A stretch of 64,000 nucleotides of DNA from Medicago truncatula (lineage: Eukaryota > Streptophyta > Magnoliopsida > Fabales > Fabaceae): positions 48,650,494-48,714,493 of the forward strand of contig NC_053045.1 of assembly GCF_003473485.1 (NCBI RefSeq). Reading direction: 5' to 3'. This document shows positions 36,071 through 60,148 of the stretch, in pieces. Every line of letters begins with the position of its first letter. Positions within the stretch are counted from its first letter, which is position 1. The notes beneath the pieces were generated by a model. It saw only the letters and a list, made by a program, of their open reading frames with translations, was not told the origin of the DNA and made no database searches. Both the position numbers and the translations under genes were made by a program.

Positions 36071-36166
36071 TTAAACCCCTCTAACACTGTTTTTTGTTAA
36101 TTGTTTTTTTTTTTTAGTTACTTGGTTTTGTTTAAATATTATGTTCTCTATTTGAGTCTATTTTAA

Positions 36167-36256: not shown

Positions 36257-36391
36257 ATATCTCTCTCTTCTATAGCAAACCATTGCATCCTTTTTTTAAT
36301 TTGATCTGATAGAGTAATGTGCTGTCTTTATATTTATTGAATATATAAATTGAATTTTTCACTAATCACCTGGCCCCCCTTACTACTTGAT

Positions 36392-36478: not shown

Positions 36479-37011
36479 AATTTATCACAAATTTCATTTC
36501 ATTGACAAAAACTAATATTGTAAGTCGTACTAAAAATATTAAAAATGGAAATGATAAATTCAAGGATAATATGGAATGAAATAAAGAGTGTGGACCTGTA
36601 AATGGAAAGCTTAAAGTTAAAAATCGTTGATGGAATAGTAATGTTTATGATAAAAAAATATATTAATATCCAAGACCTAATGGTGTATCAAGTGATTTCT
36701 ACCGTCGACTATAAAGACCGATGTATTGTCTGAGCAAATTGGAGATGAGGTTGAATGAAGAGGGAACACTCACTATGGAAAGATGTTTTAGCTAGCAAGC
36801 GGCAATCGTATTTGTCAGTTGTTGGACGGTAATGTGGTATCTTGGCCGCTTCTAGGTGGTGGCAAGATAAGGAGGTGTTGGTGGGTCAAAATTGGTTTAA
36901 TAGAAGAAGAAATAATACTTGAACAATCTATTTTTGACAACTTTTGAAACAATCCTCAATCTTATATTTACATTTGTTTTTATTCTCTCTTCTATTAGAG
37001 GATTGATATTT
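36479..37011. other. Region 3' of the snoRNA cluster
   Basis: No further box C/D pairs with a closing stem, and no gene, were recognised. The end of the polycistronic transcript should lie here. Confidence 0.45.
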
Positions 37012-38470
37012 CCTTGCGCGCCCTATTTTTTTTTTCAATTTTACCTTTGGTCAGAATTTTGTTTTCCGAATTGTATTGTTAGAATTTTGCAGATCTTTCT
37101 GGATTTTTAGAATCCGAAATGTTTTACCATAACTTTTAATCTTCAAAATAGATAAAAAGACAAATATAAAAACAACTGATTTTATTAATATATGAACAAT
37201 ACACTACAATAATTTTCAAGCTTTTTAAATTTATGCTGCTTGATAGGGCTAGGACATATCAGTAGCTTTGGTGTTGGTGGGGAGACACAGGGGCCTTTAA
37301 GGAACAAGAGAGGCCTATTTCTATGAAAGGTCAACGATGGAAACACATCGTTGCAGAAGAGGATAAGAGGAGAAAGAAGAAGGTGTGACTATTTTTGAGA
37401 AAATGAAGTCTATTTATAGGGAGGGAAGGACCAAAAAAACGTGTAAAAACACGTTTTTCAATTTGACCACTGCCCAAAACGTTTGAAAAACGTTTTCTTT
37501 GTGGTGCAGACCACCGGCCAAAAGCTTCTGGTGTAATCCGGAATATATAATCCGGAATACACATATATTCTAGATTTCATATTCCGGAAACATACGATAC
37601 TGAGGTGAACAAAGGGAATCTTGGGAATTTGAGTATGGTGAAGGTTGGTTCAGATTTTAGAATCCGAATTTATTCAGCATTGGATTCTTTTGTGTGTTCC
37701 ACATTGCACGTTTTCATTACAAGTAAACTACATCAGACAAAACAACATGGAATTCCCTGGCTTTGATCCGAACACCAAGCTAGCGGCAGTCTACTACAAC
37801 GGTGGAACACCACCCCATCTGTTTAGGATTCGAGACAATGTCACCCTCTCCGGGCTGAAGGATGATTTGGATCAAATCAACCGTCAACTCAACCACAAAG
37901 ACACGAGGAGGGTTGACGGAGTTCAATATCGATGTCCATTATCCGACTTAGCCGAATCTCTTCGCTTCAGCCGGATGAAACTCAAGAACGACAACGATGT
38001 GCGAACTATGTTCTCTGTCTTTGGTCAGCACAATACAAGAGGATCGATCGAGTTGGACTTTTCGTTGGTTAGATTTGCTGAACAAATTCTGAAAAGTTTG
38101 CACCGAACCAGGAACTACGAAGAGATTCGGGCTTTGCTAGAGGGACCAGAGGAGGAAGAAGTTAGTTTAGATGATTCGTGATAATGTGCTATGTTTTACT
38201 TAATCGTGTGTTTTATGTTGTTTTAATTGCGTGTTAGTTATGTGTTGTTGAATTAAGTAGTTGCATTATGTTTTAATTTACGTCAAATATGTTCATTTAT
38301 TCGATAAAATAACCAAAGATATGATTTTCGAATTACGAAATCCGGATTTGCCTAGGGCGTATGTGTGTTCTGGAAAACGAAATCCGGAATACCTCAGCAT
38401 AGGATTCTTTTGTACGGACCACATTGCACCAGGAGTTTATGCGTTCCACAACATCCAAGGACCTCTATAA
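37012..38470. mobile_element. MULE-related segment with internal ORF (ends not resolved)
   Basis: The left part (ccttgcgcgccctatttttt, then attttgttttccgaattgta and agaatccgaaatg) matches, in reverse orientation, the right part of the MULE at 4562-5995. Both share ccggaat repeats, a ctatttatag word and a ggtggtctgcaccac-type block (37490-37515 and 5163-5177). A second internal repeat links 37672-37710 (cagcattggattcttttgtg) with 38394-38432. Neither the gtagtagtc terminus nor a target duplication was found, so this is a rearranged or decayed relative. Confidence 0.6.
37747..38181 (+). CDS. PB1-like domain protein resembling MULE transposase N-termini
   Basis: An open frame of 144 residues starts at the ATG at 37747 (MEFPGFDPNTKL); the frame is open upstream to 37645, but the family-like sequence starts only here. 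The order of motifs is VYYNGG (residues ~14-19), NVTLSGLKDDLDQI, VDGVQYRCP, MKLKNDNDVRTMFSVF and SIELDF, ending in an acidic tail (EGPEEEEVSLDDS). This order matches the PB1-like N-terminal domain of plant MULE transposases. It has no catalytic DDE domain, zinc finger or SWIM motif, so it cannot be a transposase. It may be a transposon-carried gene fragment or a small domesticated protein; expression is unknown. Confidence 0.5.
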   Translation: MEFPGFDPNTKLAAVYYNGGTPPHLFRIRDNVTLSGLKDDLDQINRQLNHKDTRRVDGVQYRCPLSDLAESLRFSRMKLKNDNDVRTMFSVFGQHNTRGSIELDFSLVRFAEQILKSLHRTRNYEEIRALLEGPEEEEVSLDDS

Positions 38471-38473
38471 ATA
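38466..38473 (+). promoter_or_regulatory. TATA box upstream of three microRNA-like hairpins
   Basis: The sequence ctataaatac is followed about 30 bp later by an AC-rich, leader-like stretch (cttcaacatcatcaaaacac). The first hairpin starts about 65 bp downstream, consistent with a short Pol II primary microRNA transcript. Confidence 0.5.
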
Positions 38474-38535
38474 CATCTTCTCTGGTTTTCAGCTTCAACA
38501 TCATCAAAACACACAAATACAACAAAGAATACCAT

Positions 38536-38644
38536 GCAATTTTTTGTCATTAAGCTGAGGATCTTTCTCTTGCGGTCGCAAATAGATGAGTTAACTCTCT
38601 ATTTGATTGCATGATGAAGATCCTCAGCATGCTGTCAAAAATAC
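38536..38644 (+). ncRNA. MicroRNA-like hairpin 1
   Basis: The 5' arm gctgaggatctt (38554-38565) pairs perfectly with aagatcctcagc (38617-38628). Pairing extends outward (attttttgtca with tgtcaaaaat) and inward (aaatagag with ctctattt) with small bulges, giving a stem of about 45 bp and a short loop. The duplex region near gctgaggatctttctcttgc has the few-mismatch pattern of a plant miRNA/miRNA* pair. No known miRNA family is recognised. Confidence 0.6.
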
Positions 38645-38668
38645 AAACAAGCACACCAAAGAGACCAT

Positions 38669-38776
38669 GCAAATTTTTGTCATTGTGCTGAGGATCTTTC
38701 TCATGCTATTTTAAATATATAGATCTCTATATAACCGCATGATGAAGATCCTCAGCATGCTGTCGAAAATATATAA
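38669..38776 (+). ncRNA. MicroRNA-like hairpin 2 (paralogue of hairpin 1)
   Basis: The same 12-nt arm gctgaggatctt (38687-38698) pairs with aagatcctcagc (38745-38756). Outer arms atttttgtcat and gctgtcgaaaat also pair, while the loop side (ctattttaaatatatagatc) is different from hairpin 1. Conservation is concentrated in the duplex arms rather than in the loop, the pattern expected of duplicated MIR genes. Confidence 0.6.
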
Positions 38777-38817
38777 ATACTCCTTGATGCCTCCTTGATA
38801 CATAGATAACTCAAAAA

Positions 38818-38914
38818 TATCAAGAGGTTGCTATGAGTTAGATCTTGCTGCCTGTCAGATGAATATGTCATTTGGCAAGGCAACTTGATCTAACTCAAAG
38901 AAATCCTCTTGAAA
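38818..38914 (+). ncRNA. MicroRNA-like hairpin 3 (different sequence)
   Basis: The stretch gagttagatc (38835-38844) pairs with gatctaactc (38887-38896). The stem continues on both sides (tcaagagg with cctcttga; cttgctgcctg with ggcaaggcaac) to about 40 bp, with an atgaatatg-type loop. It lies 42 bp after hairpin 2 in the same direction, so all three may be cut from one transcript. Confidence 0.55.
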
Positions 38915-38924
38915 ACACCTTCCG

Positions 38925-40060
<1,136 letters not shown>

Positions 40061-40068
40061 CATGGTCA

Positions 40069-40143
40069 TTCTCAGGTTTGTAAATTTTTTCGTAGGCAAG
40101 ATTCAGATCTATCAAAGTCTGACCTGAGCTGGCTTATTCTCAT
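40069..40143. mobile_element. Diverged right-end fragment of the tagggttggg hAT family
   Basis: The stretch tttgtaaattttttcgtagg, followed by attcagatctatcaaagtct, aligns with 7334-7395 of the intact hAT at 6877-7401. It is truncated on its left, ends near ttattctca, and adjoins the exon 6 remnant of the 5-phosphatase pseudogene. Confidence 0.65.
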
Positions 40144-40255
40144 ACGTGACTGAAAGACATACATGCTAACTGAAAGAGACCCTTGCATCAATGATAGTTT
40201 GTACATCTTATGAGGATGTTCATACTATAAATAAGTGCACATACAACGAGTCTTC

Positions 40256-40794
40256 CAAGGCCGTTATTGAAATTTTGATGGTCCAGGACGAATCTACAAT
40301 CTTGGTCAAAAATAATGATTATATAAATAAAATTAATGTCCAAAGTATGAAAATAATTTATTTGAAGAAAATAGTTTTTACTACGTTAAAAAATATCTAA
40401 AAACAAGCTTCATACAAAAACATTGAATTTATTGAATTTTTATTAGTATTCAAATCCTCATACAAACAATACAAACAATTCATACTGCCATTTCTGAATG
40501 CAAAGTCATTAATAATTGTGTCTACTTCAATATATTATATCATATCTTTCTTAATACATAAAATGGATAGTTCATTCAACTTTTTGTGACATTGACAATC
40601 TCAGATAATTTTTCAATAATTTTAACTTCAAAAATCTTCTTTTGTAGATGACACACTCATTGATATAATTAAATAATTGTTTTTTTTTTTTGGCCTAATG
40701 AACCCTACTTTTTTTTTTTTTTTTTTTGTTAGGGCCAAATTTCTCTTTTTTGGGGTCTAAGACAGTCACCCTACCCACCTCAAATACGGCCCTG
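40256..40794. mobile_element. Non-autonomous hAT element inserted in the pseudogene
   Basis: The ends caaggccgt and acggccctg are near-inverted repeats, with a perfect 8-bp duplication gagtcttc (40248-40255 and 40795-40802). The sequence joining both sides (cgagtcttcttatga) is uninterrupted at the same site of intron 5 in the 45-49 kb paralogue, confirming the insertion. T runs lie at 40680-40690 and 40711-40728. Confidence 0.85.
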
Positions 40795-41855
40795 GAGTCT
40801 TCTTATGATTGATCAATATGATATACTGTCATCAATCAATTCTAGTAGTTGAAGTAAGATTGGTTTGTATTTTAAATTTGTATTTGAAATCTCATGTCCG
40901 AACCAAAATAAGAGAAACAATCTTAATCTAATGACTGCAAGATGTTTTGATCATATACAACTCACGAGCAAGCTGACATATATGTGCACAACAAAGACCC
41001 TTCCACAACTGGAAGTGATATAATATGTGATTAAGAAAAAAAACTGCATTATGCCATTACCTTATTCCAACAGGAGAAACTATCAAATGATGAATGTGCT
41101 TTTCAGCTTCCTTTGCACCCAAACAGACACATATATTCCTACCATCTGCTTACTCACAATCCGAACATACTTAGGCTGTGATTTCACACTTCCTATTCCA
41201 TTTATCTTTGTCAATTGGTAATTCGAAAAAGTATCATTTCTTCATTTGCAAGGGAATCAAATACTTGAGGCACCATTTCCTTTTGCTTTTTTCTCCATAA
41301 CAAACTCAAAATTCCATAACTTCGGTGTGAACGTTTCATTTCATATATACAATGAAACACTATCTATCAAGTTAAATCCTATTCTAACCGAGCTGCATAA
41401 TACTTTGCAAAATTTTGGAAATGAATCAACATGATGGATTGCATCTAATGGAAGTTCAGGCCAATTATACTTTAGATGAGAACTGTCTAATGTTTGTATA
41501 CAGTTCTCATCTACCATATCAAGTGGATTAATTTGTTCTAACAGGAGAAGGAGGGGGACTGTAGCTTTTAAGTTTAGTTTCCGGTTCAGATGCTGCTTTT
41601 AGAGTTCTTCTTATCCTCTGCTCCAAATACATTTCCATCATTCAATGGAACTAAATCTTGAAAATTGTTGAGCAAAATATGAATGAATCAACTTTGTTAT
41701 TCGCACTAAAATTTAACTCACTAGAGAAGATTTGTTTAGAGCTCTTCTAATCCAAACACATTTCCAGCATTCAATGAAACAACTTCTTGGAAAATGTTAT
41801 GGAACAACACATAAGAATGAATTAAAGAAATTAAAAAAAATTGAACTTGAATTGT

Positions 41856-42008
41856 AGGGCTTTACCCCGTGGGGAGCCCTTCCAGAAATTCTCGAAGGCC
41901 AAGGATAAACCAAGGCCTAAGAGGGGGTTTGGAAATAGTTTTCAACCAGCAATAGACGCGCCTCGGTTAGAACCTCATTAGCTGCGTCATTGCCCCAAGC
42001 GCAAAGAT
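41856..42008 (-). ncRNA. U4: U4 spliceosomal snRNA, copy C (in intron 4 of the pseudogene)
   Basis: U4 pairs with U6 in the tri-snRNP and is released on spliceosome activation. The RNA starts atctttgcgcttggggcaat and is about 153 nt long. It shows the 5' stem-loop with the 15.5K/Snu13 kink-turn (aatgagg...ccgaggcgcg), the single-stranded ttgaaaactatttcc region, an Sm-like aatttctgg, and the 3' terminal stem ggctccccacggggt. Its control elements are intact: USE gtcccacatcg (42073-42083), TATA (42034-42041) and 3' box caattcaagttcaa (41841-41854, matching CAN3-10AGTNNAA). It remains whole although the surrounding exons have decayed. Confidence 0.92.
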
Positions 42009-42033
42009 GCTTTATACTGTATCAAGCTTAGTT

Positions 42034-42083
42034 TTTTATAATAGTTTAAACATATGTTGTTTATGATATCAGCGATGTGGGAC
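42034..42083 (-). promoter_or_regulatory. snRNA promoter (USE + TATA) of U4 copy C
   Basis: The USE is a perfect RTCCCACATCG (42073-42083) and the TATA box ttataaaa is at 42034-42041. The 31-nt gap between them is the Pol II class spacing; Pol III-type plant snRNA genes have it about one helical turn shorter. Confidence 0.88.
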
Positions 42084-42649
42084 ATCACATACTAACCCAA
42101 TAATGTAAATTTCTGATGGTTCCTCAGTACAAAGCCAACCCTCAATTTCAAGATCATTACATGGATGTAGTCCAGCAACATTCCAGGTACCAATTGTTAC
42201 CCTGGAAGTTCAACATTTATTAATGAACATAATCAATATCTTTGAAGTTAATGACATGTTACATATTCAGATTAAAACAAGACCTCACTTCTTTCGTATT
42301 TATGCATTGAACACGCAGAGTTTCTGAATTTAATCTTCTGTGTCGTCTCGTCTTGTACAAATATCAAATCACATATATACTGATTTTTACAAAACAGTCA
42401 TGTTAATTTCATATAATCTTGGTTCGTAACTTATTTTCCAAGGAACATTTAAGCTTCATACTTGCATCATAAATGCCAACAAGTAACGTAACTTGGCCTC
42501 TTTGTAAATTTAATAAGAAGCTACTGTACCATTCTAATAACAAGAGAAAGCAATTGTAGAAGGTCCTTAAGAGCAAAAAGTACATATCCACACAATGAGA
42601 CAATCTTAAATAAAGTTAGCGGAATGAGTGTTTTGTTTTCAACTATCTC

Positions 42650-43000
42650 ATTTACTTTAAAGTAACTGGCTATGCTATGGAGACGCCAAAGAGGCGCACC
42701 CAAGCCAATCCGGTGATTCTATTAGTGTCATCCGATGACAATCACACGTTGATCCATGAGGTCATATCCAATGCAACACAATGGTAGAGTATGCCCTATA
42801 AATACTAACACATGTCCCAAGTCAAGTCTAAAACCTCTAAAACCTCACACCCTTGATCTAAGGCTAACTTGATCATCACAAGTTTGCAGGTACACCATCA
42901 TCTCTGAGGAGCTTCTGTTGTTCTCAAGCGCACTTCCACCAATCCGGCTGCCGAATTAGGTCCACTTCAGATCAAATAGAATTCTAAAAATGAAAGATAT
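42650..43000. repeat. Possible Ty3/gypsy LTR fragment
   Basis: The stretch has an LTR-like order: a TATA-like ccctataaatactaac at 42793-42808, ctaacttgatcatcac, ttgcaggtacaccatcatc and ccaatccggctgccgaatta. This matches the general layout of plant gypsy LTR 3' halves. Its ends and any partner LTR were not found. It interrupts homology between the pseudogene and the 5' part of its paralogues. Confidence 0.35.
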
Positions 43001-45131
43001 TATTATTTTCTTTTGATTCTGTAATTTTTTTTTCAACTTAATTAAAAAATGAAAGATAGTAAATGGTGTAATTTTGTTTATAAAATTCAGGATATCCTAA
43101 CTAACTAATAGATCCTCTCAATTAATAAAACAAAGCTGAAGTCATATTTGTTTTTTATATGAACAATTTGAATTATTTAAGTGCACAATAGAATGGAGAT
43201 CCTAATGTCCCTTGATCCTATTTATCCACCTTAAAAATGGGAATTTTTAGTCATTAAACTGCTTGACAAAAAAAAAAAGAGATCCTAATAGAACAGAAAA
43301 AGACAGACAAATGTGTGATATACTGATATGACTATTAGCAAGATATCCACAGCCACAATTTTTTTTTTTTGAATAAACAGACACATCTTTCTTAAGGGGT
43401 ATACACACACACTAATGGTCCTCACACATCATAAAACACAGGAGAATATACTCTCAACAATTGAAATTTAGGCCTAAATCAGACCGCAGTACAACCTGAG
43501 ATCAAACGAACCCGGAAACTAGCCTATCCACAGTTCAACCGGTCGAGTCAGCCAATTCAGCTTGGTTTTTAAAACAATGGTTGAAACTCAAAAGGAAGTC
43601 CAACAATAAATCTCTCTTTCAAGAGAGAAAGAGACATATTTCTAAAAAAAAATAAAAAATCAGTGAGTCAGTGCCAAAATTAAAAAAAAAATCTGTTCAT
43701 TACAACAATTGTTTTTAATCTTCAGTCAAGCAACTAGCTGATAGAAAAAATAGTTAAAACTATAAAATAATTCAAATGGCTAGATATTTTTTCAATTTCC
43801 TTAGAACAATAATGCACAAACTAATATATATCTACTTCATTTTGCAGATTCACTGCAGCTACAAAATATAGATGTTAACACATCAGTAATTACACTATTA
43901 GGAAGAGTCTGTCTGAGTAGAACATACCAAATCCAATTATAAAAATACTTCATCTTATTTGTTAAAATTCGGGCAAGCAACTAGCTAATAACAAAAAGTA
44001 ATAATGTAAAATGTAAATCATAAAATAACCAAATATTAGACTTCAATAAATGGATGATTAGCTCAAATAGGCGTGCAGTTTTTTGTAGGCAAATATTAAT
44101 TAGTTGTTACTTGTTGGACACGTTATCTTTGTAACCATAGTTTAAATCGTGATTTTACTTCTCAAAATTGGATTTGGATCCACAACACTTGAAAAAAACA
44201 TGCAGATACACGTATTAATCGATCATGGCCATTGATCTGAGATCAGTTTCTTACATTACAACTTCACAGAATCATCATTAAATCATCTCCTCCATCAATC
44301 GGTCAAAACGAGTAATTGTATAATGCAGTTATTGCGTAAAATCCAAATCCAGCATACCTGCTCAGGTGTCAGCTTAACCACTTGAGCTATCCTTTGGAGG
44401 AGAAATCGACTTCAATTAGTATTGGTATTCATTAATAGCTACAGATTAGAGTAGACACTAGATAATATTTTCTATTATCTTTACAATATGTATAGAATTG
44501 ACAACCTCAGCAACATATTTGTTTTGTTAAATTGATCCATAAAACTGAATGATGGTTTGAGAAAGTGAGGCCACAGATGTCGGGCTAGCGTACTATTTGT
44601 GAAGAAGGTAACAGTTTGACAAAGAAGATTGAATATGCCTTCAAGTGATGGTACTATATTGTAATCCTTGATTTTTTCCTAATGAGTTTGCTTTTACTAT
44701 AAGGAAATATATATACTTTTTTGGTAGAATGAGAAGAAAAAAAGGGAAAAAAAACAAGAACACTAAGAGCAAGGTTCGGTCTGGGTATCAAGCCTCAACA
44801 CTCTTTCCAATTATGATGGGGAACCTGCCAATAGGTCACACCTAACCGTGAAGAGCGTCCGAGCTTGGCCAAGAAATTCGTGCAACAGTTCTATAAAAGA
44901 AATATATATTAAAGACTTTCAACTGAAGTTATAACATATAATTTTGAAATGTACAATGGACTATTACTCTTTATCTGTATTAACCAGAAGTATATATTTC
45001 CTATACAAAAGTTCTCATGAATTAGAATCTGGATATAGTTAGTACTCTTGAAGAGAGAAATAAGATGATGGAATGGAACTGTATTTATCACTGATGGTAT
45101 GTTCCTATACCTTAATCTTTGTTTGGTATAT
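43001..45131. other. 5' flank of the pseudogene copy
   Basis: Blocks here match the upstream DNA of the intact genes: 43590-43630 resembles 57275-57320, 43780-43880 resembles 57415-57515 and 50020-50115, and 44500-44625 resembles 59090-59205. The triplicated unit therefore included over 2 kb of upstream sequence. Exons 1 and 2 were not found. 44660-45131 has no gene. Confidence 0.6.
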
Positions 45132-48100
45132 CTATTGATATGACAAGTCCTCATCCTCATCCTCTTTAAGGAAAACATCAGGATGTACAACTGCACTTGC
45201 GAAATATATAGCTCGTTCTAACTTCCGGTGGTCAATTACTTCAACATCAACCAAGAAGATTGAACTAACTGGTCGATGATCTGAAAGCTGATTTTCTGCA
45301 CTCTGATACTTTAGTTGCTTTATTCCTTTTCCAAGCCACAATATGCGATCACACCTGCATAATCTTACGCATAATTATAGTGTCTAATTCATGCAACAAC
45401 AAAAAATTCACATGCTTGCACTTACCATGCTGGAGCTCTCCTTTTTTCACCTTCTTGTGTGTTCCCACCCACATGTTTATCAGAGTTAAATTCATATTTG
45501 TATGTGGGTGGGAAGTTTATTAACCCCTCTTTCCATCCCTCAAATACATGTCCCTTACATAATTCATTGCTTAGCTGCAAATTAAGCGAAGCAATTAGAA
45601 ATTCTCACGGATCATGGAAAACAATTATATTATATGTAGATTAACATTTGAATCTAAGTTTGGTATTAACACTTGAAACCAACTTTGGTCTAGATAAAAA
45701 TTAGAATATATCATATTGGAGACTCCAAGTTTCATATTTCTCACCTGATCGAATTTCATGAGCTCGTTCCACTTCTTTAGATCGACTAGCTTTCGAATCT
45801 CACCATCCGACATATTGATACGATAATTCAAATCCCCGAACCAGAATATTTTACTGTTAGCAAAAGGCAAGTCATAAATGAATCCAAAATCTTCATTCAC
45901 AATACTGATAAGCCAATATATCTTAATCAAAAAGATAAAATTAAGTGAACATGCAACTTGCGATCGACATCGAATTCACTCATTATGGTTGTTTATCAAA
46001 ATGTTTGAAAATCGCAATCCTTTAATTACTTATCATATGTACATTTTTCTAAAGGCTACTTGCTTTTGTTAAGCTCTTAAGATGATTTTTAAGGATAATT
46101 TTTAAAGTAAACCAAAACAGCTGGCTTACTCATGTGATGGAATTTTCTGTGGTTGATCTGTATCAAAGACTGATGAGAAACGAGTGCGTTGTAGAATTTC
46201 ATGTACATCTGAGTTTCGTCTTTGTTCCGCTCCATCTTTCTGACCTGAAGCCAGATGGGAACAAACAAAGCACATACGTGACTGAAAAACAGACATGCTA
46301 ACTGAAACAGACCCCTGCATCAGTGATATTTTGTTACCAGTTACCACATATATGAAGGTTAAAATGAGCATGTTAATACTATAAATGAATGCACACATAT
46401 AACGAGTCTTCTTATGATCAACATATAAAATTGCAGATTTGATATACACTATCGATAGATTTTAGTCTTTGAATCAAAATCAAATGTTTTGTATTTGAAA
46501 AATCTTATTTAGTGAATCAAATATGAGATAGACAATCTTAATCTAACGACCGAGATCTATCATGTATACGATATTTTGATCACATGCAATTTGTGAACAA
46601 GTACCCTACCACAACATGACATGATGTACCCAAAACTGTGCAACCTAAACATTTTATGGTACCTTTGTTAACATTTGATGTGAAACTCATAGTTAGCACA
46701 TGACACATGAAAAAACCTATTTTGATCAATTCTCTTTTGGTTTCATCCATTTTATGGAATCAACATGACTTTAATTTTGTTCGATTTATATAAAAATGCA
46801 CAAAACATAGCACAATCCTCAAGGTTTGTTAAATATTATGTACCAATGCTACCTTAATATCCTGGAATACATTAAATATACACCTATACTATGATAAATA
46901 ATGTTCAATTCAATATAAAAGAGGTGCAAGGTTACCTTGTTTCCCATGTAGCCCATAAGACCAACACCAACTTGAGAAACTTTCAAATGATGAACATGCC
47001 TTCTCAGTTTCCTTTGCACCCAAACAGACACATATATTCCTACCATTTGCTTGCTAACAATCCGAACATACTTAGGATGTGATTTCACACTAATGATTCC
47101 ATTAGCATCTTCATTATTTGCTAATTCGGAGAAAGTGTCATTATCTTCATCAGATAACATGTCAGATACATCAAGATGGGAATCAAATACTTGAGGCACT
47201 ATTTCCTGTTGCTTTTCACTCCATAACAAACTGAAATTTCCAGAACTTTGGTGTAAACTTTTCATTTCAAAACCATACAAGGAAGCACTATCTGAGGTGC
47301 TTTGTACTCTGCGCATTTTTGGAGATGAATCAACATGATGGATTGGATCTAACCGAAGTTCAGGCCAATCAAGTATAGTTTGAAGATCAATGTCATATAT
47401 TTTACTCAATTGAAGATTCTTTTCTATAGAAATTATGGTTTTTATTTCTTCCTTCTTGTCTAAAGCACTATCTAGTGGATTAATTTGTGTATTAAAAGAA
47501 GAAATTCTTCTAATAGGAGAAGGAGGGGCACTATTGCTTTTCTTTTTAGTTCCGGGTTCCGAAGATTTGTTTAGAGTTCTTCTAATGAGTGCATCCCATT
47601 TTGGGATTGGTTTACTATCTTCTGCTCCAAACACATTTCCAGCATTCAATGGAACAACCTCTTGGAAACTGTTATTGAACAACAGATAAGAAAGAATTAA
47701 AAAAATTGAACTTAAATTGTAGGGCTTTACCCCAAGGGGAGCCCTTCCAGAAATTCTCGAAGGCCAAGGATAAACCAAGGCCTAAGAGGGGGTTTGGAAA
47801 TAGTTTTCAACCAGCAATAGACGCGCCTCGGTTAGAACCTCATTAGCTGCGTCATTGCCCCAAGCGCAAAGATGCTTTCTAGTGTATCAAGCTTAGTTTT
47901 TTTATAATAGTTTAAACATATGCTGTTTATGATATAAGCGATGTGGGACATCACATACTAACCCAATAATGTAAATATCTGATGGTTCCTCCTCGGTACA
48001 AAGCCAACCCTCAATTTCAAGATCATTACATGGATGTTTCCCAGCAACATTCCATGTGCCAATTGTTACCCTGAAAATTATCCAATTGTACAATTAATTT

Positions 48101-49584
48101 CATTAATATCTTTATAGTTAAGGACATGTCACATGATAATATTAGCATCATACCTCACTTCCTTGGTATTTATGTATTGAGCACGCAAAGTTTCTGATTT
48201 TCTTCTTCTGTGTCGTTTCATCTCGTAGTCCTTACAAGATGTATCTGAGTTACAATATTAAAACACACATATATCAAAAAAAAACTTTGTGACCTCATCA
48301 CGATAACAATCAATCATTTAATTTTACAGAACAGTTATATTAATTTCATCTACTCTCTTGGTTAGTTGCACGAATAATATGACTTCAAACTTAACTCAGT
48401 TGAGTTGGTTTGGTGGTGTTAGCTTGGGGCTTTGAAGTGTGGTTTGTCTCAATTTCGATTAATTTAACTTGAAAAAACACACGACTTCAAAACATATCAT
48501 TTCTTTTTCAAGGAACAACTTTAGCTTCATAAAAAGCTACCATTCTAATACACAGCAAAATATGATCGACTGTGTTTTTTTTCAAAATACACACTTTAAC
48601 TTTGCCAAGTTTTTTTTTTTCCTTCAGTCATCTCATTTAATTTAAATGATCAAAAAATTAAAATATATCAATAATTAATAAGGATAATTTAATAAAGTCA
48701 ATCTCCCTCTCTCATTTATCATCTTCTCATAATATGTAAAATGATCAAATACGACATTCATTTTAATATAGAGGAATTATATTGAAAATTGAAACTGACA
48801 TCTTTTTTTTGGTCAAGTAGACTATCGACTAAAAATTCACACTTCTAAGGTGAATAAGTAGGATATTCGGGGTTCAAACGCTAGCCCCTGTCTATATTAT
48901 GTATTGTCCCTATCAACTTAGTTAAGCTCACAATTTTATTTGAAGACAATATTTTATTTTACAAGTGTGACAAAGAGGGAGTATAAAATAGTTTGGGGGA
49001 GTAGAAAACTAATTCAAAGCATTGACATAGTCTGGAACACAATATAGCACACAAATTTATGAATCCATAACTATAACTCATGATATATAAAAAATTAATT
49101 TAGAAATTCCTTCTTTGTAAACTAAACCAGGACAATCACAATCACAATCACAATCACTCTCGATATAATACTAACAGTTTAAAGAAAATAGACTAGTAAA
49201 GAATTGCTTTTTTATGTTCTGGTTCACTCATATTAGTCAAAACAGAATATTTAATTAAAATATCTATATATCCTCTCTTTTCTTCTATTCATATCTCATC
49301 AATTAAACCAACAATTAAATGAACAAATAAAAGGAAGGAAAAAAATGATATATAGTAAATAATGAAGCACATACATACCATCATCTTCACTTTCATCAGT
49401 TTCAGTGTTAGCTTCATCTTCACTAAAATCATACACCTTTTGTTTTACATTCAACCATTTCTTCATCACTGTGGAGGGCCAAAACACCTGCATTAATCAA
49501 ACAAAATTATATATGTATCCTCATAGAATAGAATAGAAGTTTACAAAGCATGTCAAAGCTTACCTCTGAGCGTTTTCCCTTCAT
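45132..49584 (-). CDS. Type I inositol polyphosphate 5-phosphatase (tandem copy B)
   Basis: This enzyme removes the 5-phosphate from soluble inositol phosphates such as IP3 (and from phosphoinositides in some members), damping Ca2+/phosphoinositide signalling. Nine exons from 5': 49564-49584, 49379-49487, 48154-48244, 47963-48070, 46936-47668, 46130-46314, 45745-45853, 45426-45574 and 45132-45354. All borders are GT-AG and phases agree, giving 575 aa. Motifs are [13 protein letters not shown] (N-terminus), [50 protein letters not shown] (catalytic), PAWCDRILW and LSDHRPVSS. Exon 5 carries a long non-conserved insert, as in plant IP5P1/IP5P2 relatives. Intron 4 is occupied by a U4 snRNA gene. 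Exon 7 has a possible in-frame alternative acceptor 51 nt upstream. Substrate preference cannot be read from the sequence. Confidence 0.93.
47721..47873 (-). ncRNA. U4: U4 spliceosomal snRNA, copy B (in intron 4 of 5-phosphatase copy B)
   Basis: The RNA starts atctttgcgcttggggcaat at 47873 and runs about 153 nt to ...gccct. The kink-turn 5' stem-loop, central ttgaaaactatttcc, Sm-like aatttctgg and the 3' hairpin ctccccttggggt are all intact. The USE lies at 47939-47949, the TATA box at 47900-47907 and the 3' box caatttaagttcaa at 47706-47719. It has the same orientation as the host gene. The USE begins 13 nt into the intron and the 3' box ends 37 nt before the acceptor, so the intron is little more than the U4 unit. 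Confidence 0.94.
47900..47949 (-). promoter_or_regulatory. snRNA promoter (USE + TATA) of U4 copy B
   Basis: Perfect USE gtcccacatcg at 47939-47949 and ttataaaa at 47900-47907, separated by 31 nt (Pol II class spacing). Confidence 0.9.
48803..48932 (-). mobile_element. tRNA-derived SINE in intron 2 of 5-phosphatase copy B
   Basis: On the minus strand it starts gtgagcttaactaagttgat (A-box region), then has a B-box-like gcgtttgaaccccgaatat, and ends with gtctacttgacc and an A run (T8 at 48803-48810). The order and 3' end match a common legume SINE type. No clean target duplication was found. Confidence 0.75.
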
Positions 49585-51771
49585 TGTGCTTCAAGTCAAA
49601 ATACTATTAACTCAAGTCAAAGCTAAAGCTCTTAAATATGAAAGGCGACAACTTTTAGCCACTATCTCTAATATGTCTTCACATGTTGTAATAATTAACA
49701 AAACAAGAAGATCCTAATAGTATAGAATAGAAAACGACACAAATGTGTGACATGACAATTTCAGCAAGATATCCGCAACCACAACTTTCTTAAGGACAAA
49801 AGGAAAGAACAAAATAGAATACTACTAACGGTCCTCACCCAACATAACATTCTGATGATGAAACATAGACAAACATACCCTCAACAGTTGATATTTTGTC
49901 CAAGGTGTTAGAAAGAAAAAAAAAACTGTCATTGCACCAATAAAATGTAGTGTTTCATAGTGAAGCAACTAGGCAATAAAAAGAATAGTTTATATTAAAA
50001 CTATAAAATAATCGAAGTGGCTAAGTTTTTTTTCTATTACTTTAGAGAAGTAATGCAGAAACTAACATCTGCTTCATTAGCAGATTCACCACAGCCACAA
50101 AATGTAGATGTTAATACATCATCAGTAATGCAGAAAGTAGTATCTACTATAGGATCAGAACAAACTGCTGCCACAAAATGTAGAAGTGAAAAATACAAAT
50201 TAAGTGTGCATGATTAGTTAATGATCCCCACAAAGGAGGAATTCCCCTAACGAGTAACGATCTTTATAGTAACATCTTCAAGGGGATTGGTTTTGCTATC
50301 TAAAAAGGATAAGTGGTGCAACTTATTTTCCGTTTGCCCTACATTCCTGCGTAATTTTCCAGTTTATAGCCTAACTAGCCCAAATATTCGACTAGCGAGA
50401 GTGTAATTATAATTCAATAATAGCTATAGAGTAGAGCTTAATTAATTCAACAAACAAAAATAGTTATAGAGTAGAGTAGGTAGTTTTTCTAAATTAAAAA
50501 AAAAAAAAAAAAGAGTAGGTAGTTTTTATGAAAGGAATAGAGTAAATTAGACAATGGGATTTAGATTTAGTGCAATTTGTTCGCATGCATTCATCACATC
50601 TGGACCGTCCATATTTTAATGTGCCGCAAGTAAGAGTTTTGAGTTTTCATCCATCTATTCTATTTTAAGTCAAATGGACAAGCAAGTTGGTGGGGGGAAT
50701 AAGAATAACATGTTGACAAGAAGATACCTCTCTTACTCATGTGTTTCAACTTTCAATTTCTTTAACTTAACTGAACCAAATACATGAATAATGTTGAAAA
50801 CTTTTAGTAAAACTGGAATTTAGTGATGATAGGTAAATAAAAGCATCTTCCAATCTTATCATGGCAACGTGGAAAGCCAATGCCAGCGGCAGTGTCAATC
50901 CTGTTGGTGTTAGATATTCTTTAACCATAAAAATGAATGTTTATGCATAAGCCATTAGATATTTACATAAACAAATCATTTCTTATACTAATAGAATCTA
51001 CAACATGCTTGATTAGAATCATTTATATCAATACTTATCTGAAATGATAGATTGGATCTATGAAACACGGATACAGACACGGATACCAGACACGACACAT
51101 ATACCAATACGCCGACTTTGCTAATAATTTTATAAAATCAGATAATTCAATGTAATTATATGTGTCCGGAACACGTCTAATCCGAGTAGTGTATGTGCTT
51201 CATAGGATAGGATTGGATCCGTTAATAACTTGATATTGATCACTTATCTGAAGTACTAAGAGGTTTCAAGCAGTGTAGTAAAACTGTTCTTATCTCAAGA
51301 CATTCCTTAGTTAAGTCTACTAACATACCAGCTTTATGAGTGAATCTAATGTAACAAAAAGTTTACAAGTCAAAATATGGAAGAGCTCATTACACTCACA
51401 ACCGATGGGACCAAAACTGTATAATGGTCAACACATATTACGGTTAAAAAAACAGTAATTTATACACATTTTTCTGTTTTAAACTTTCACTTAACTAATT
51501 CATATTCAGAGTGTTACTCTCAAAAAGTAGGCTTGATGGTTTGTGCTAGCAAACTGGAACTGTTAATTGTGCAAATCAGTTTACAAACAGTTCACCATAG
51601 CTGTCTTTCTTTATCAACTCAACCTCAAAACCAAAATGATAACTCCCTGCATAAGAATAAACGAATAGTATTTAGCGAAATCATATAAACATATCGAATT
51701 TAACTTTTTCTCTTCAACTAAATTAATTAGATATACCTCGGTATACCACAATTTTTTGCTATATATGGCAT
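49585..51771. other. Spacer between 5-phosphatase copies B and A
   Basis: It contains the 5' flank of copy B (blocks at 50020-50115 and 50640-50880 match 57415-57515 and 59225-59420 upstream of copy A), then a MITE at 51058-51205 and the 3' end of copy A. No additional gene was seen; the small ORF at 50017-50217 is flank sequence shared by the paralogues. Confidence 0.6.
51058..51205. mobile_element. hAT-like MITE (ctatgaagcacggacac family)
   Basis: The ends ctatgaaacacggatacaga and tagtgtatgtgcttcatag are inverted. The flanks gattggat and gataggat form an 8-bp duplication with one change. Same family as 19370-19535 and 60764-60905. Confidence 0.78.
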
Positions 51772-54700
51772 CTAACATGCCAAGTCCCTGTCCTCTTCAA
51801 GGAAAATCTCAGGATGTACAACTGCACTTGCGAAATTTATAGCTCGTTGTAACTTCCGGTGGTCAATTACTTCAACATTAACCAAGAAGATTGAACTAAC
51901 TGGTCGATGATCTGAAAGCTGATTTTCTGCACTTTGATACTTAAGTTGCTTTATTCCTTTTCCAAGCCACAATATGCGATCACACCTGCATAATCTTACG
52001 CATAATTATAGTGTCTAATTCATGCAATAACAAAACATTCACATGCTTGCACTTACCATGCTGGAGATCTCTTTTTTTCCCCTTCTTGTGTGTCCTCACC
52101 CACATATTTATCTGAGTTAACTTCATACTTGTAAGTAGGTGGGAAGTTTATCAGCCCCTCTTTCCATCCTTCAAATACATGTCCCCTACACAACTCATTG
52201 CTTAGCTACAAATAAAGTAGCAAATTGCCAATTAGAAATCAAAGTATTATTGGGAAAAATCTGAATATGAAGTTGAAAAGAAATAAGGCCTAAGAAGTGT
52301 ACATATTTATAAACTTATGTCTCCTTAAAAGCTTATGTTATAAGTTAAATCATGTACAAAATCTAATTTGATAATCAAAATCTATCTATTTGTGCCACCT
52401 ATACCAAACTATCGATACACCAACTCAAATCATGTTGGATGTATATAAAAGTCTAATCAGAATCAAATGTGGGTAACTACGTAGGCAGATCCTTGTGTGA
52501 ATGTGGATTAACATCTGAATCCAAGTTTGGTGACAGCACTTGCAATCCGTTTGACAACTCTAGGATTAGGCCTTGATAAAAATTAGAACAACATATTGGA
52601 GACCAGTATTTTAGTCCAAGTTTCATGATTCTTACCTGATCATAGTTCATGAGTTCATCCCACTTCTTCAGAGCTACTCGCTTCCGAACCTCGCCATCCG
52701 ACATATTGATACGATAATTCAAATCTCCAAACCAGAAAATCTGACTGTTAGCAGAAAGCAATCCGTCAATGAATTCAAGATCTTCATTCACAACACCACT
52801 CAAAAGATGCAAATAAGATGATTGTAATCTGTAGTCCCAAGTAGGTAGCTCGAATGGTGCGAGCTAAGGGACACTGAAGGAGCTTTAAGTAGGAGGTTTA
52901 GGGTTTGAACCCTAAAAGCTAACATAACTACTAACTTACTAACATGTACCTATCCATAACAAAAGATGATAGTAAAAGGACAACTTTTTAAGTAAAGATA
53001 AACTTGCTTACTCGTGCGATGGAATTGTTCGTGGTTGATCTGTATCAAAGACTGATGAAAAGCGAGTGCGTTGGAGAATTTCGTGAACATCTGAGTTCCT
53101 TCTTTGTTCCGCTCCATCTTTTTGACCGGAAGCCAGATGAGAACAAACAAAGCACATGCGTGACTGAAAAACGGACATGCTAACTGAAACAGATCCCTGC
53201 ATTAGTGATAATTTGTTACCTCATCCACTAAGGTTAACATGAGCATGGTAGTATTATAAATAAATCATAGATGTACAGATAAAGTAACTTTTCTTATGAT
53301 CAGCATAAAAATGCAGATTCGATATGCTATCAATAGATTTTAGTCTTTCAATCAAGATCAAATGATTTGCATTTGAAATCTTTATGTAGCAGGTGACACA
53401 CTTGAGAAAACCTATTTTGCTCAACTCTCTTTGGTTCCATCCATTTTAGTTTGGAATCAACGTATACTTTTTTCCAAAAGGGAACATAAACTTATTATGT
53501 CCTATTTTATCATGCGCAATAACATAGAACAAAACTCATGGTTTGTAAAAGCTCATGTACCAAATGCTACCTTATAGTATTATAAACCTACATTATGGTA
53601 AATAGTGTTAAACTCAATCATAGAAAAAGCTGCACTACACCATTACCTTGTTTCCCATGTATCCCATAAGACCAACTCCAACAGGAGAAACTTTCAAATG
53701 ATGAACATGCCTTCTCAGCTTCCTTTGCACCCAAACAGACACATATATTCCTACCATCTGCTTACTCACAATCCGAACATACTTAGGCTGTGATTTCACA
53801 CTTCCTATTCCATTAACATCTTTGTCAATAAGTAATTCGGAAAAAGTATCATTTTCTTCATCAGATACATCAGCAAGGGAATCAAATACTTTAGGCATCA
53901 TTTCTTGTTGCTTTTCTCTCCATAACAAATTCAAATTTCCAGAACTTTGGTGTGAACGCTTCATTCCATAACCATACAAGGAAGCACTATCCATAAGGTT
54001 TAAGCCAATTCTAGCTGAACTGCTTAGTACTCTACGCAATTTTGGAGTCGAGTCAACATCATGAATTGCATCCAATGGACGTTCAGGCCAATCAAGTATC
54101 GTTTGAAGATCAATGTCATATATTTTCCTCAATTCAAAATTCTTTTCTATACCAATTATGCTTTTCTCTCCCTCCTTTTCTAGTGGATTAATTTGTGTAT
54201 CGAAAGAATTTGTTCTAATAGGAGAAGGAGGGGCACTATAGCTTTTCTGTTTAGTTTCGGGTTCAGAAGATTTGTTTAGAGTTCTCCGAATGATTTCTTC
54301 CCATTTTGGGATTGGTTTATTATCCTCTGCTCCAAACACATTTCCAGCATTCAATGGTACTACCTCTTGAAAACTGTTAGGAGCAAAACATAACCCTTGT
54401 TATTAACAATGATATTAAACTTGAATTGTAAGGCTTTACCCCTTGGGGGAGCCCTTCCAGAAATTCTCGAAGGCCAAGGATAAACCAAGGCTTAAGAGGG
54501 GGTTTGGAAATAGTTTTCAACCAGCAATAGACGCGCCTCGGTTAGAACCTCATTAGCTGCGTCATTGCCCCAAGCGCAAAGATGCTTTCTACTGTATCAA
54601 GCTCAGTTTTTTATAATAGTTTAAACATATGTTGTTTATGATATCAGCGATGTGGGACATCACATACTAACCCAATAATGTAAATTTCTGATGGTTCCTC

Positions 54701-55526
54701 AGTACAAAGCCAACCCTCAATTTCAAGATCATTACATGGATGTTTCCCAGCAACATTCCATGTGCCAATTGTTACCCTGAAAAATTAACCATTTATAATT
54801 AATTTCATTAATCAATAGTTTAAAGTTAATGACATGTCACATAATCAGATTAACATCAGACCTCACTTCCTTCGTATTTATGTATTGAGCACGCAAAGTT
54901 TCTGATTTTCCTCTTCTGTGTCGTCTTATCATATTGTATCCCTTACAAGATGTGTCTGAATAAATATCAAATCACGTATATAGTAATTTTCACATTACAT
55001 TTCATATACATATTGGTTAAAAAATATATTAACAAATTACTTTAAATTTCCTATCTTCTTTTGCAAGGAACATTTCAGCTCCATATTTGCATCACAAATA
55101 CCGACAAGTAATGTTTCTAGATTTCATATCAAGCTACCATTCTAATAAGCAAAGACAGCAATGGTAGAAGGTCTTTAAGAGTGTGCATGTGTGTCAATCT
55201 TTAAATAAATAAATTTAGCAAAAAGAGTCTCTGTGGAACATATTTAGAATTTCTTGCACTAATGGCCACATAAATTTCACACTATTCCCTCTATTCCATT
55301 TTACATGTTATTTTAGCAAAAATACTTATATCTTTTTTTTTATTTTACAATAAATGTAATAAATTTTCTTCTTCTTATTAATATTTTTGTATCAATTTTT
55401 TTCCAACTTAATTAAATGAAAGATAGTAAATGTTGTATTTTTTTTTAAATCCGTGATATTAATCATATTCCTCAACTCTTACCATAATTGTCACACTTCT
55501 TATTTTACACTGATTAAGAAGAAAAA

Positions 55527-55563
<37 letters not shown>

Positions 55564-56760
55564 ATTCTACCAAATTAACATTATCTTATCAGTTACACGT
55601 GTGTTCACATTATTACCTTAAGTGTAAAGTAAAAAAAATTATTTGAAAGTAACGCAAATAATATTAATTAGGCTTAATTCCAATTTTGATCCTCCTATTT
55701 TATTAAATTTATGGAGATAGTCATCCTTTTTTGAAATAAAACTTGTTTGTCCTCTATTTTCATATTTGTTGCAATTTTGGTCACTTACCCATATTTTTTT
55801 CTTTAAAAATGATGACTTTTGGCGTCGAAAGATGTGAATTTAAGTCTCAAAAATGATATTTTGTTTTTAGACTCAACATTGGGGAAATGAATCACTTTTT
55901 TAAAAAAATAAAAAATATAGGTTGGAACCAAAATTACAACAAATATAAAAATAAAGGACCAAAAAGTTTAAATTTGAAAATGGATAACTATTTTTGTGTG
56001 TTTGATAAAATAGACACCTAAATGTGAAATCATTGACATTTGAGATGGTCAAGAACACAAAATATACACATAAATCATGACATCAATGGTTGTATAAAAA
56101 TAATGACATGAAAGCCTATAAATGTATAAATATATTAATTTTAAAATTCGTTTTTTCAAACTAAAACTGGACAATTACGGCCACGGTATACATAATTCAG
56201 TCGATATGAAAAATGCATTATAATTTATAAGGTTTGGGTTCAAACCTCAAATACCATCATTATTCGCTGAAGATTAATTCTAGCGACTAGCCTACTAAAA
56301 AGCATAACAATCACAACCGCTCCAAACAATTCTGCTAATTCCTTTAAAACAAATTACATAAAGAAACAAGTTCACTCCTATTAATCAAAAGAGAGGAATA
56401 GAACGAAAATATTATATATCCTCTCTTTCCTTCTATTCCTTTCTCATCAATTAAACTAACTACTTCAGAGCAATATGCATGCAAAATGAAAGAGAAAAAA
56501 AAAGGAAGAAGAAAAAAAGAGAGAAGCACATACCATCATCTTCACTCTCAGTTTCAGTGTCAGCTTCATCTTCACTAAAATCATAAACCTTTTGCTTTAT
56601 ATTCAGCCATTTCTTCATCACTGTGGAGGGCCAAAACACCTGCATTAATCAAACCAAATGATAAAGTTTTAACAAAATGCAGCTGATATTTATATAGAAG
56701 TTTACAAAGCATGTTAAGGTTAAAGTTTACCTCTGAACGTTTTCCTTTCCTTGCTTTCAT
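51772..56760 (-). CDS. Type I inositol polyphosphate 5-phosphatase (tandem copy A)
   Basis: This is the paralogue of the 45-49 kb gene with the same role and nine-exon structure. Exons from 5': 56731-56760, 56534-56639, 54862-54955, 54672-54776, 53647-54373, 53012-53196, 52636-52744, 52057-52205 and 51772-51985, giving 572 aa. Landmarks are TWNVAGK (82-88), a variable Ser-rich insert in exon 5 (about 135-300), VCSHLASG in exon 6, the catalytic [11 protein letters not shown] (~419-429), PAWCDRILW (~500-508) and LSDHRPVSS (~525-533). The N-terminal [10 protein letters not shown] differs slightly from MKGKRSE in copy B. Intron 4 holds a U4 snRNA gene, intron 6 a SINE, and intron 2 a TA repeat and MULE-like repeats. 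An in-frame alternative acceptor lies 54 nt before exon 7. No lesion was found. Confidence 0.94.
52838..52945 (+). mobile_element. tRNA-derived SINE in intron 6 of 5-phosphatase copy A
   Basis: An A-box-like ggtagctcgaatggtgcgag at 52843-52862 and a B-box-like gggtttgaaccc at 52901-52912 lie about 45 bp apart, as in tRNA-derived SINEs. Intron 6 of copy B has no such block. The 3' end is not precisely placed. Confidence 0.6.
54430..54583 (-). ncRNA. U4: U4 spliceosomal snRNA, copy A (in intron 4 of 5-phosphatase copy A)
   Basis: It starts atctttgcgcttggggcaat at 54583 and runs about 154 nt. It agrees with copies B and C through the 5' stem-loop, kink-turn, central single strand and Sm-like site. 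The small differences are in the 3' half: ttaagcc for ctaggcc-type positions, and an extra base in the 3' hairpin (ctcccccaagggg). The USE lies at 54648-54658, TATA at 54609-54616 and the 3' box caattcaagtttaa at 54415-54428. The extra base keeps the hairpin and need not harm function. Confidence 0.93.
54609..54658 (-). promoter_or_regulatory. snRNA promoter (USE + TATA) of U4 copy A
   Basis: Perfect USE gtcccacatcg at 54648-54658 and ttataaaa at 54609-54616, separated by 31 nt (Pol II class spacing). Confidence 0.9.
55531..55560. repeat. TA microsatellite in intron 2 of copy A
   Basis: About fifteen TA units. Confidence 0.9.
55660..56025. mobile_element. Decayed TIR element (MULE-like) in intron 2 of copy A
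   Basis: The left arm (gatcctcctattttattaaa ... catatttgttgcaattttgg) is mirrored on the right (caaaattacaacaaatataa ... tttgataaaatagacacct). These words resemble the ggtcc-type MULE ends at 64-190. No exact target duplication was identified. Confidence 0.5.
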
Positions 56761-57083
56761 TGCACTTTCAAGTCAAAATACTCAAAGTTTACTGTGCCAT
56801 ACTTTCAAAGCTCAAGCTCTTAAATATGGAAGCTGACAAATTAATAGCTAGCTAATAAGTAACTAACTAATAGTTCCTCTCAAATTGTCGCAATTAATAA
56901 AATAAAGTTGCAGTTATTAATTATTATTATTATTTTTATATAAAAAGTTGGAGTTGTTTAAATGCACTATAGAAAGGAGATCCTGATAGAACAAACAGAA
57001 AAGGACATACGAATGTGTGACATGACAATTTCAGCAAAGATATCCACAACCACAACTTTCATAAGGTGTGTCTATATATAATA

Positions 57084-57227
57084 CTCCCTCCGGTCCTATA
57101 TATAAGAAACAATTTACTTTTTTGATTCATTCAATAGTTGATGTATTTAATCTATTTTTAAACTAGATACATCAATTATTGAATTAATTTAAAAAGTTAA
57201 TTTTCTTATAAATAGGATCGGAGGTAG
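57084..57227. mobile_element. Stowaway MITE (Tc1/mariner)
   Basis: The terminal repeats ctccctccggtcctatatat and the inverted aaataggatcggaggtag are flanked by TA duplications (57082-57083 and 57228-57229). The 144-bp length and the CTCCCTCCG end are diagnostic of Stowaway elements. It lies about 320 bp upstream of the copy A start codon. Confidence 0.9.
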
Positions 57228-57685
57228 TACTAATTGTCCTAACAAATCAAAACATTCTGATATAAAACACTGGCAAAAGAAAGTTCAACAATAAATTTCG
57301 TTTTCAAGAGAGAGAGAATTTCTAAAAGATATATCGGTGAATCAATGCCAAAAAATCAGAACTGTTCATTACAATCAACTAGCTAATAAAAAAAATAGTT
57401 ACATTATAAATAATCCAAATGGCTATTTTTTCTATTAATAATTTATAGCAATAATGCACAAACTAATACTACTTAATTAGCAGATTCACTACAGCCACAA
57501 AATGTAGATGACAATACAGAAGCCAGACCAAAATTCATGAATAATAGGTAAAAAAAAAATCTATATATTCATAACATACAAAATTCATATTATTTTTCTC
57601 AATCGGGCAATCAACTAGATAATTAACAAAAAATAGTGTAAATCATAAAATAGTCCAAATAGGGTATTGTCTACTATTTTTGTTT

Positions 57686-58385: not shown

Positions 58386-60148
58386 CTTAACATATATTAA
58401 GAAAAAGTTGACAACATAATTAATATTTTACATATGATATCATTCTTTTTATACAAATTTTTTTAGACGAGTTGGACCCTGGGGACTCACCAAAGTCGGG
58501 ACAGATTACAAGGCTCAAAGATTTTATATTTTTTACAACTTTTTTCATATAAGTTGGACTTTGGAGGCTTACCATAGTCACGGTAGGTTCAAAGAGTGCT
58601 TACACACCCATCAAATATGCTAACACATTGACAACGAGAGTTAAACTCACAACCCAGCAGGTGAATCAATTTTTTTATCAATTAAGTCAATCTTCATTGG
58701 TTGTGTATGACTATTATTAAATCACTTTGTGTGTATAGGTGTATACAATATTTATTTTTGATATTCAAAAACAAATTAGTAGTATTTATCAGAATTATAT
58801 ATATTTGAAAAAAATAGAATAAATATCTAATATATAATTAAGAACTTGAGGAGTATAAGCAAATGTTTTTTTTTAGGTAAGGAAATGTGATTGGTTACTT
58901 GTAAGAAATTTCTTAAACTAACACATAAAAATACAACCGTGAGATTTTAGATAAAGATGTTCAACTTAACAATATCGACATTACTAGTTGAGTTAGGTCT
59001 TACGGACAGTATAATTATTAAAATTAGTGTAGGTCGGTAGACAAGTATTCTCTTCTATTTTTCCCTCTATTTCTCTTCTGGTAAAAACAGGTATAGAATT
59101 GACGTCCTCAGCAGCATATTTGTTTTTATTAAATTGACCCACAAAACTGAATGATGATTTGACAAAGTGAGGCCATGTCGGGCAAACGCACTATATGTGA
59201 AGGTAACAGTGTTGAGAGCATGCATCCATCTCAAATCTATTCTATTTTATATCAAATTGACAAGCAAGTTGGTGGGGAATAACAACTCGATCATGTGTTT
59301 CAACTTTAAATACTTATTTTAACTTAACAAACACATTAATAATGTTAAAAACTTTTGGTAAAACTGGAATTTATCGAGTGAAAGCAACTTCCTAGTAAAT
59401 ATTATCTTGGCAACATGGAATTCTTAATGTTAATGGCGACAACAATCATGTTAGTGTTAGATATTATTTAACTATAAACATGAATACAAAAGTAATAATC
59501 GATCTCAATCAAACAATCGATGAATAAAGTTAAGTAATTAGTGGCTTTGTGATTCTTCCTCAACCAAATCCTCTAGTTATCGTTGGAACTTTCAAACATT
59601 ACAACCATGAAGAGAAATTGAGACTAATTGTGCACTATTGTTGATTTATTTTTTTTCAAAATAATTACCAACTAATTACGATTTCAAACAATTGCCAATA
59701 ATCATTTACTAAAAAGTTGCATCAGTTTTTTTTTATCACATTACACCGAACCGATTATTACCACGCAACTTTAGCACACAAAAAAATAAACACCAGAATG
59801 AAGGTTATGTATTTTAAATTGTGAGGTAGTAGCTTTACATAGATACATTCAACTCAAATTTAGGGCAACATAAAGCACCGATTTCGACCCCAAATTACTG
59901 ACAACACTGCGTTTAACATCTTCATTTACTCCCTAAACTATGGTGATGTTTTCTCAACTCAACAGAATGTTACACACAACAAAATGAAGATGTGTTTTCA
60001 TGTCATGGAAAAAAAGTGATGGAGATCCACAGTAGTGTGAATGATAGACAAGTTAAGCAAAATACATTTTTTTGAAAAACTTCTAGCCTCAAATTCATTG
60101 CCCACAACAACAATCTTTGAAATTCAGCCAGCTGTGGCTATGGAGTGC
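58386..60148. other. Spacer between copy A upstream region and the tetraspanin gene
   Basis: 58690-59460 includes sequence shared with the upstream flanks of the other 5-phosphatase copies, marking the right edge of the triplicated unit near 59.45 kb. No gene was seen. The last few hundred bases should include the tetraspanin 3' UTR. Confidence 0.55.

Follow-up and report, generated by a model that had tools for sequence, protein, structure and literature searches.

Predicted Pol II U4 snRNA genes lie in sense within intron 4 of tandem 5-phosphatase genes in Medicago truncatula

Three U4-like stretches in a 64-kb window of the Medicago truncatula genome (the window is the whole stretch of DNA analysed, 64,000 nucleotides) lie in what is, or once was, intron 4 of an inositol polyphosphate 5-phosphatase gene. 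This raises the question of whether they are U4 genes in their own right, and how a transcription unit with its own promoter and 3' box can share an intron with a host transcript. We suggest that they are quite probably independent Pol II U4 genes, placed in sense in host introns and duplicated in tandem together with the hosts. This view is based on features of the DNA, listed in Table 1.

Table 1. Coordinates of the U4 units and of their host genes in the window.
Feature	Position	Strand	Remarks
U4 snRNA copy A	41856..42008	-	~153 nt; Rfam span 42008-41858; RF00015, 109.8 bits; 3' end approximate
U4 snRNA copy B	47721..47873	-	~153 nt; Rfam span 47873-47723; RF00015, 109.8 bits; 3' end approximate
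U4 snRNA copy C	54430..54583	-	~154 nt; Rfam span 54583-54432; RF00015, 106.7 bits; 3' end approximate
USE of U4 copy A	42073..42083	-	exact match GTCCCACATCG
USE of U4 copy B	47939..47949	-	exact match GTCCCACATCG
USE of U4 copy C	54648..54658	-	exact match GTCCCACATCG; 13 nt inside intron 4 of host C
TATA box of U4 copy A	42034..42040	-	32 bp after the USE
TATA box of U4 copy B	47900..47906	-	32 bp after the USE
TATA box of U4 copy C	54609..54615	-	TATAAAA
3' box of U4 copy A	41841..41854	-	CAATTCAAGTTCAA
3' box of U4 copy B	47706..47719	-	CAATTTAAGTTCAA
3' box of U4 copy C	54415..54428	-	CAATTCAAGTTTAA; fits CAN3-10AGTNNAA
Host B	45132..49584	-	span of the coding sequence in nine exons; inositol polyphosphate 5-phosphatase, uninterrupted frame of 592 aa
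Host C	51772..56760	-	span of the coding sequence in nine exons; inositol polyphosphate 5-phosphatase, uninterrupted frame of 590 aa
Host A remnant	40141..42357	-	pseudogene; found by tblastn and alignment; pieces of exons 3, 4, 5 and 6 only
Intron 4 of host B	47669..47962	-	294 nt, GT..AG
Intron 4 of host C	54374..54671	-	298 nt, GT..AG

The first-pass annotation had proposed three U4 snRNA units, together with a search using the Rfam U4 model (RF00015). This search bears the proposal out, as the full model (positions 1-138) was covered at all three loci with scores of 106.7-109.8 bits against a cut-off of 46. The U6-pairing region, comprising stems I and II, is common to copies A, B and C, and the predicted duplex with U6 is identical in each at -31.6 kcal/mol, using an assumed U6 sequence. 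The Sm-like site reads AAUUUCUGG in all three copies and is one letter apart from the Rfam consensus, AAUUUUUGG. Differences between the U4 bodies are few, and most of them are found in the 3' terminal hairpin. When U4 is folded alone, the minimum-energy structure of copy C is unlike those of A and B and is weaker (-50.0 vs -53.5 and -52.6).

Plant snRNA promoters for Pol II and Pol III are reportedly told apart by the distance between USE and TATA box, which is about four helical turns for Pol II, and in dicots the sequence upstream of the USE is reported to be without importance (PMC9845283). The consensus of the plant snRNA 3' box is given as CAN3-10AGTNNAA (PMC545797, PMC5079582). By these signals, namely the USE (RTCCCACATCG), the TATA distance and the 3' box, all three copies are predicted to belong with the plant Pol II snRNA genes. 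The gap between USE and TATA box is 32 bp in each (43 start to start), the TATA box starts 32-33 nt upstream of U4 +1, and a 3' box of the form CAN5AGTNNAA is found 3 nt past the Rfam end. An exact USE occurs three times in the 64 kb, each time at a U4 copy; five matches are obtained with one mismatch or less, where shuffled sequence gave a mean of 0.64 and at most 3. The perfect USE, Pol II-spaced TATA box and consensus 3' box seen in the first-pass annotation are thus present in every copy. As a separate observation, the sole A-specific change in the U4 unit, at -6, creates a second TATAAAG at -8 to -2 (42010-42016).

We did not find any other spliceosomal snRNA at the Rfam cut-off in the 64-kb window, or in the region 34500-57500 at E values up to 0.5. 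A U1-U4 cluster was rejected, since U1 gave no match in either search. Matches to other small RNA families were found elsewhere in the window. The region 35326-36479, on the plus strand, holds six C/D-box snoRNA matches (snoU61, snoR14, snoZ101, snoR14, snoZ101 and snoR44_J54), in which the snoR14-snoZ101 pair occurs twice. A MIR2587 precursor is matched at 4719-4817 on the minus strand (90 bits, cut-off 75.5); MIR2587 is a family from Medicago. Four plant MIR models match positions 57078-57233, three of them on both strands and all below cut-off, and this stretch resembles a MITE-type palindrome more than it does a miRNA gene.

In hosts B and C all introns are GT..AG, and exon 7 of host C starts at 52798, after the acceptor GAG. 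The host B protein, the only one compared with Pfam, matches PF22669 (E=2e-71; best PDB relatives: OCRL, type II inositol polyphosphate 5-phosphatase). The host C protein, in a 589-aa version with exon 7 from 52795, gave no match in NCBIfam. Such hosts are sometimes named 'type I' plant 5-phosphatases. Intron 4 splits a coding stretch, and its removal restores an open 5-phosphatase frame in both B and C, whereas its retention is computed to give a stop 10-21 codons past exon 4.

The U4 unit lies wholly between the donor and the acceptor of intron 4 in hosts B and C. In both, 13 nt of intron are followed by the 244-nt U4 unit and then by 37 nt (B) or 41 nt (C) between the end of the 3' box and the acceptor. 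The hosts and the U4 copies are all on the minus strand, and the first-pass annotation, which described the U4 units as lying in sense within intron 4 of tandemly repeated 5-phosphatase genes, is therefore correct in this. The same description had placed the USE 13-14 nt past the 5' splice site, which agrees with the 13 nt measured in all three copies, and the end of the 3' box about 40 nt before the acceptor in the intact copies, which agrees with the distances above. It had also given intron 4 a length of about 295-300 bp in all three copies; this holds for B and C and does not apply to A, where the acceptor has been lost.

Host A does not have the open phosphatase frame that is found in hosts B and C. 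Exon 5 contains frameshifts and stops, and a tblastn search of positions 37500-44700 at E values up to 10 did not find exons 1, 2 or 7-9. The acceptor dinucleotide AG of intron 4 is now AT (41795-41794), and the intron is therefore unusable. The U4 unit of copy A looks intact though the host gene has decayed.

A fourth nested copy was considered and rejected: when the proteins of hosts B and C were used as tblastn queries over all 64 kb, matches at E values up to 0.01 were confined to the three host loci already described. It should be mentioned that positions 59070-59485 are similar to sequence on the downstream side of host B (44469-44619) and of host C (50653-50938). The tblastn search at E values up to 0.01 showed no host exon in the neighbourhood of 59.07-59.49 kb, and this sequence may flank a fourth unit that has been lost or lies further away.

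Exons 3-5 of A, B and C were aligned in order to compare the copies. Between copies, the U4 body is 98-99% identical and the promoter, from the USE to -1, is 95-97% identical. The corresponding values are 67-80% for intron 3, 61-73% for the stretch from the 3' box to the acceptor, 78-88% for exon 5 and 85-91% for exon 3. Exon 4, which is outside the U4 unit, is promoter-like in this respect (93-98%), and the 17 nt from the Rfam end to the end of the 3' box are only 82-94% identical. Divergence from the donor to the U4 start differs from that of intron 3 in all three pairs (Fisher p 0.003 to 2e-6). Changes specific to A are found at 1 of 256 ungapped sites in the unit, counted from the donor to the 3' box, against 118 of 940 outside (Fisher p 4e-12). 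For B the counts are 5/256 and 68/940 (p 0.001), and for C 4/256 and 38/940 (p 0.057). Slow change is thus centred on the U4 unit, with the adjoining exon 4 also changing slowly.

No A-specific change is seen at 55 sites in the second half of exon 4 either, and this suggests gene conversion in preference to selection on its own. With a tract set to begin midway through exon 4 and to end at the 3' box, sites where B and C agree against A are the commonest pattern outside (118/231 variable sites) but make up 1 of 13 variable sites inside (Fisher p 0.002). Inside the tract, the commonest grouping is A with C (7/13, p 0.053). A permutation scan for a conversion tract gave p 0.015, with tract limits picked after inspection of the data. 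Based on these patterns, gene conversion between A and C is likely, and the U4 unit would be either held by selection or refreshed by conversion, or both. Hosts B and C appear constrained as well, as dS between them is 0.29-0.31 and dN is 0.076. With a dS of about 0.3, their duplication does not seem to be very recent.

We suggest the following course of events. A complete Pol II U4 gene, with USE, TATA box, body and 3' box, would have arrived in sense in intron 4 of a 5-phosphatase gene, and after this single insertion the host was presumably duplicated in tandem together with its U4. Each U4 copy would have a transcription of its own, driven by its USE/TATA promoter without help from the host, and the DSP1/CPSF73-I complex of plants would cut the precursor ahead of the 3' box. 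Splicing of intron 4 would rescue the host transcripts, drawing on the only free sequence of the intron, which is the 13 nt ahead of the U4 unit and the roughly 40 nt behind it. Most likely, the units have since been kept by selection, by gene conversion or by both. Independent transcription is the simplest reading, because the plant Pol II snRNA signals and the U6-pairing region have been kept, and an unspoiled U4 unit in the dead host A fits it. As a counterpoint, conversion could also spread an inactive copy.

It is unlikely that the U4 copies are silent snRNA pseudogenes carried along passively, with a good appearance owed only to recent tandem duplication or conversion. Arabidopsis is reported to have 11 U4 copies, nine of them judged likely active (PMC545797), and with so many copies in plants silent ones do occur. 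The A-C-like tract also starts inside exon 4, about halfway along, and such a start would be expected of a conversion tract. However, the B-C divergence speaks against a very recent duplication, the promoter and 3' box fit the consensus in all three copies, and the few differences in the body fall mostly in the 3' terminal hairpin.

It is more doubtful still, indeed very improbable, that U4 is a by-product of the host, set free like many snoRNAs from the spliced-out intron or from a cut host transcript, so that host transcription drives U4. The sense orientation would allow it, as would 3'-end cleavage that in plants is reported to work without the snRNA promoter (PMC5079582, PMC6670113), and one review asserts that U4atac expression depends on its host CLASP1 (PMC10228655). 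Human RNU4ATAC is nevertheless reported to be bound by SNAPc, GTF2B and Pol II (PMC3499247). All three Medicago copies, including the one in the dead host A, have a complete USE/TATA promoter. Moreover, a 5' end made by processing has no snRNA cap, and a U4 released from its host in this way would be without one. Independent transcription is thus the reading that we retain.

Under independent transcription, the 3' box would still be part of the host transcript. In plants, cleavage at the 3' box is reported to be separable from initiation and not to need the snRNA promoter (PMC5079582, PMC6670113); in metazoans, 3'-box processing is reported to require it (PMC5079582). Interference between host and snRNA is therefore possible. 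The first-pass annotation had raised such interference, which is credible as a possibility and is adopted here as that only. Host transcripts may thus carry a live cleavage signal that splicing must outrun. A stronger version, in which the 3' box of U4 serves as a regulated premature end of the host and DSP1/CPSF73-I cuts intron 4 unless splicing is faster, is in our judgement rather improbable. It would accord with the distance of 37-41 nt from the 3' box to the acceptor in hosts B and C, with the early stop computed for intron 4 retention, and with the reported separation of plant 3'-box cleavage from initiation (PMC5079582, PMC6670113). However, U4 depends on these signals too, and the fact that they have been kept therefore does not argue for a role in the host. 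If this switch were real, every host transcript would be a race between splicing of intron 4 and cleavage by DSP1/CPSF73-I, the U4 gene would set the output of its host, and a loss of splicing capacity would shut the host off.

The first-pass annotation had treated the arrangement as undescribed. As a kind it is known from animals, with cases on record in fly (fas2), human (CLASP1) and worm, and nested snRNA genes are therefore not new. In Drosophila, U5:23D and LU snRNA genes are located in introns 3 and 2, respectively, of fas2 (PMC4053861). As in Medicago, these are Sm-class snRNA genes in introns of a protein-coding gene, and LU has its own PSEA/PSEB promoter; unlike in Medicago, the promoters are of the PSE type and two different snRNAs occupy neighbouring introns, according to the same source (PMC4053861). 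The Medicago family instead has a single kind of snRNA, U4, at the same intron position throughout a tandem array of hosts. In humans, RNU4ATAC is antisense to CLASP1. It likewise is a U4-type gene in a host intron (PMC10228655, PMC13400782), and the SNAPc, GTF2B and Pol II binding reported for it indicates a promoter of its own (PMC3499247). In contrast to the Medicago U4, it encodes the U4atac of the minor spliceosome, and metazoan 3' processing is reported to need the snRNA promoter (PMC5079582).

In Caenorhabditis elegans, snRNA loci are described as lying 'within coding genes', as they do here, and a supplementary table is said to have a column for intron location (PMC6390993). When snRNA 3' processing fails in the worm, chimeric snRNA-mRNA with the downstream gene is reported; processing is Integrator-based, and the available part of that report does not mention a tandem nested family (PMC6390993). 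Arabidopsis U4 genes are multicopy and share the USE, TATA box and 3' box consensus with those of Medicago (PMC545797). They differ in that seven U1-U4 clusters are reported among the 11 copies, with U4 downstream of U1 and 180-300 nt between them, and an intronic location is not mentioned in the available part of that source (PMC545797). Among the matches listed in a search of the open-licence literature, none reported an intron-nested snRNA gene of plants in its title or the start of its abstract.

A search of genome contigs with the 24-nt 5' end of U4 gave a single contig, L001, titled as an uncultured Trichormus MAG. This contig encodes a plant-like U4 (3597-3751, minus strand, 101.9 bits) with USE-like and TATA-like stretches, and is likely plant contamination. 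The host 5-phosphatase gave no match on it at E values up to 1, and it thus provides no second nested case. In viral contigs, the 24-nt U4 5' end was not found, and none of 12 stretches was confirmed as a relative of the host B protein.

What appears to be new, judged from the sequence, is that the U4 genes are nested in sense, fill most of their intron and are tandemly repeated. A further novelty would be that they occur in a lineage where the 3' box reportedly works without its promoter. In brief, the window appears to offer a plant example of a core spliceosomal RNA gene in sense orientation inside a host intron, present in three copies of which one has a dead host. The dead and intact hosts together offer a ready natural experiment. 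With them one could ask directly how the same DNA can function both as an intron that has to be excised whole and as an snRNA gene that brings its own cleavage signal, and whether 3'-box cleavage in plants affects host transcripts in vivo.
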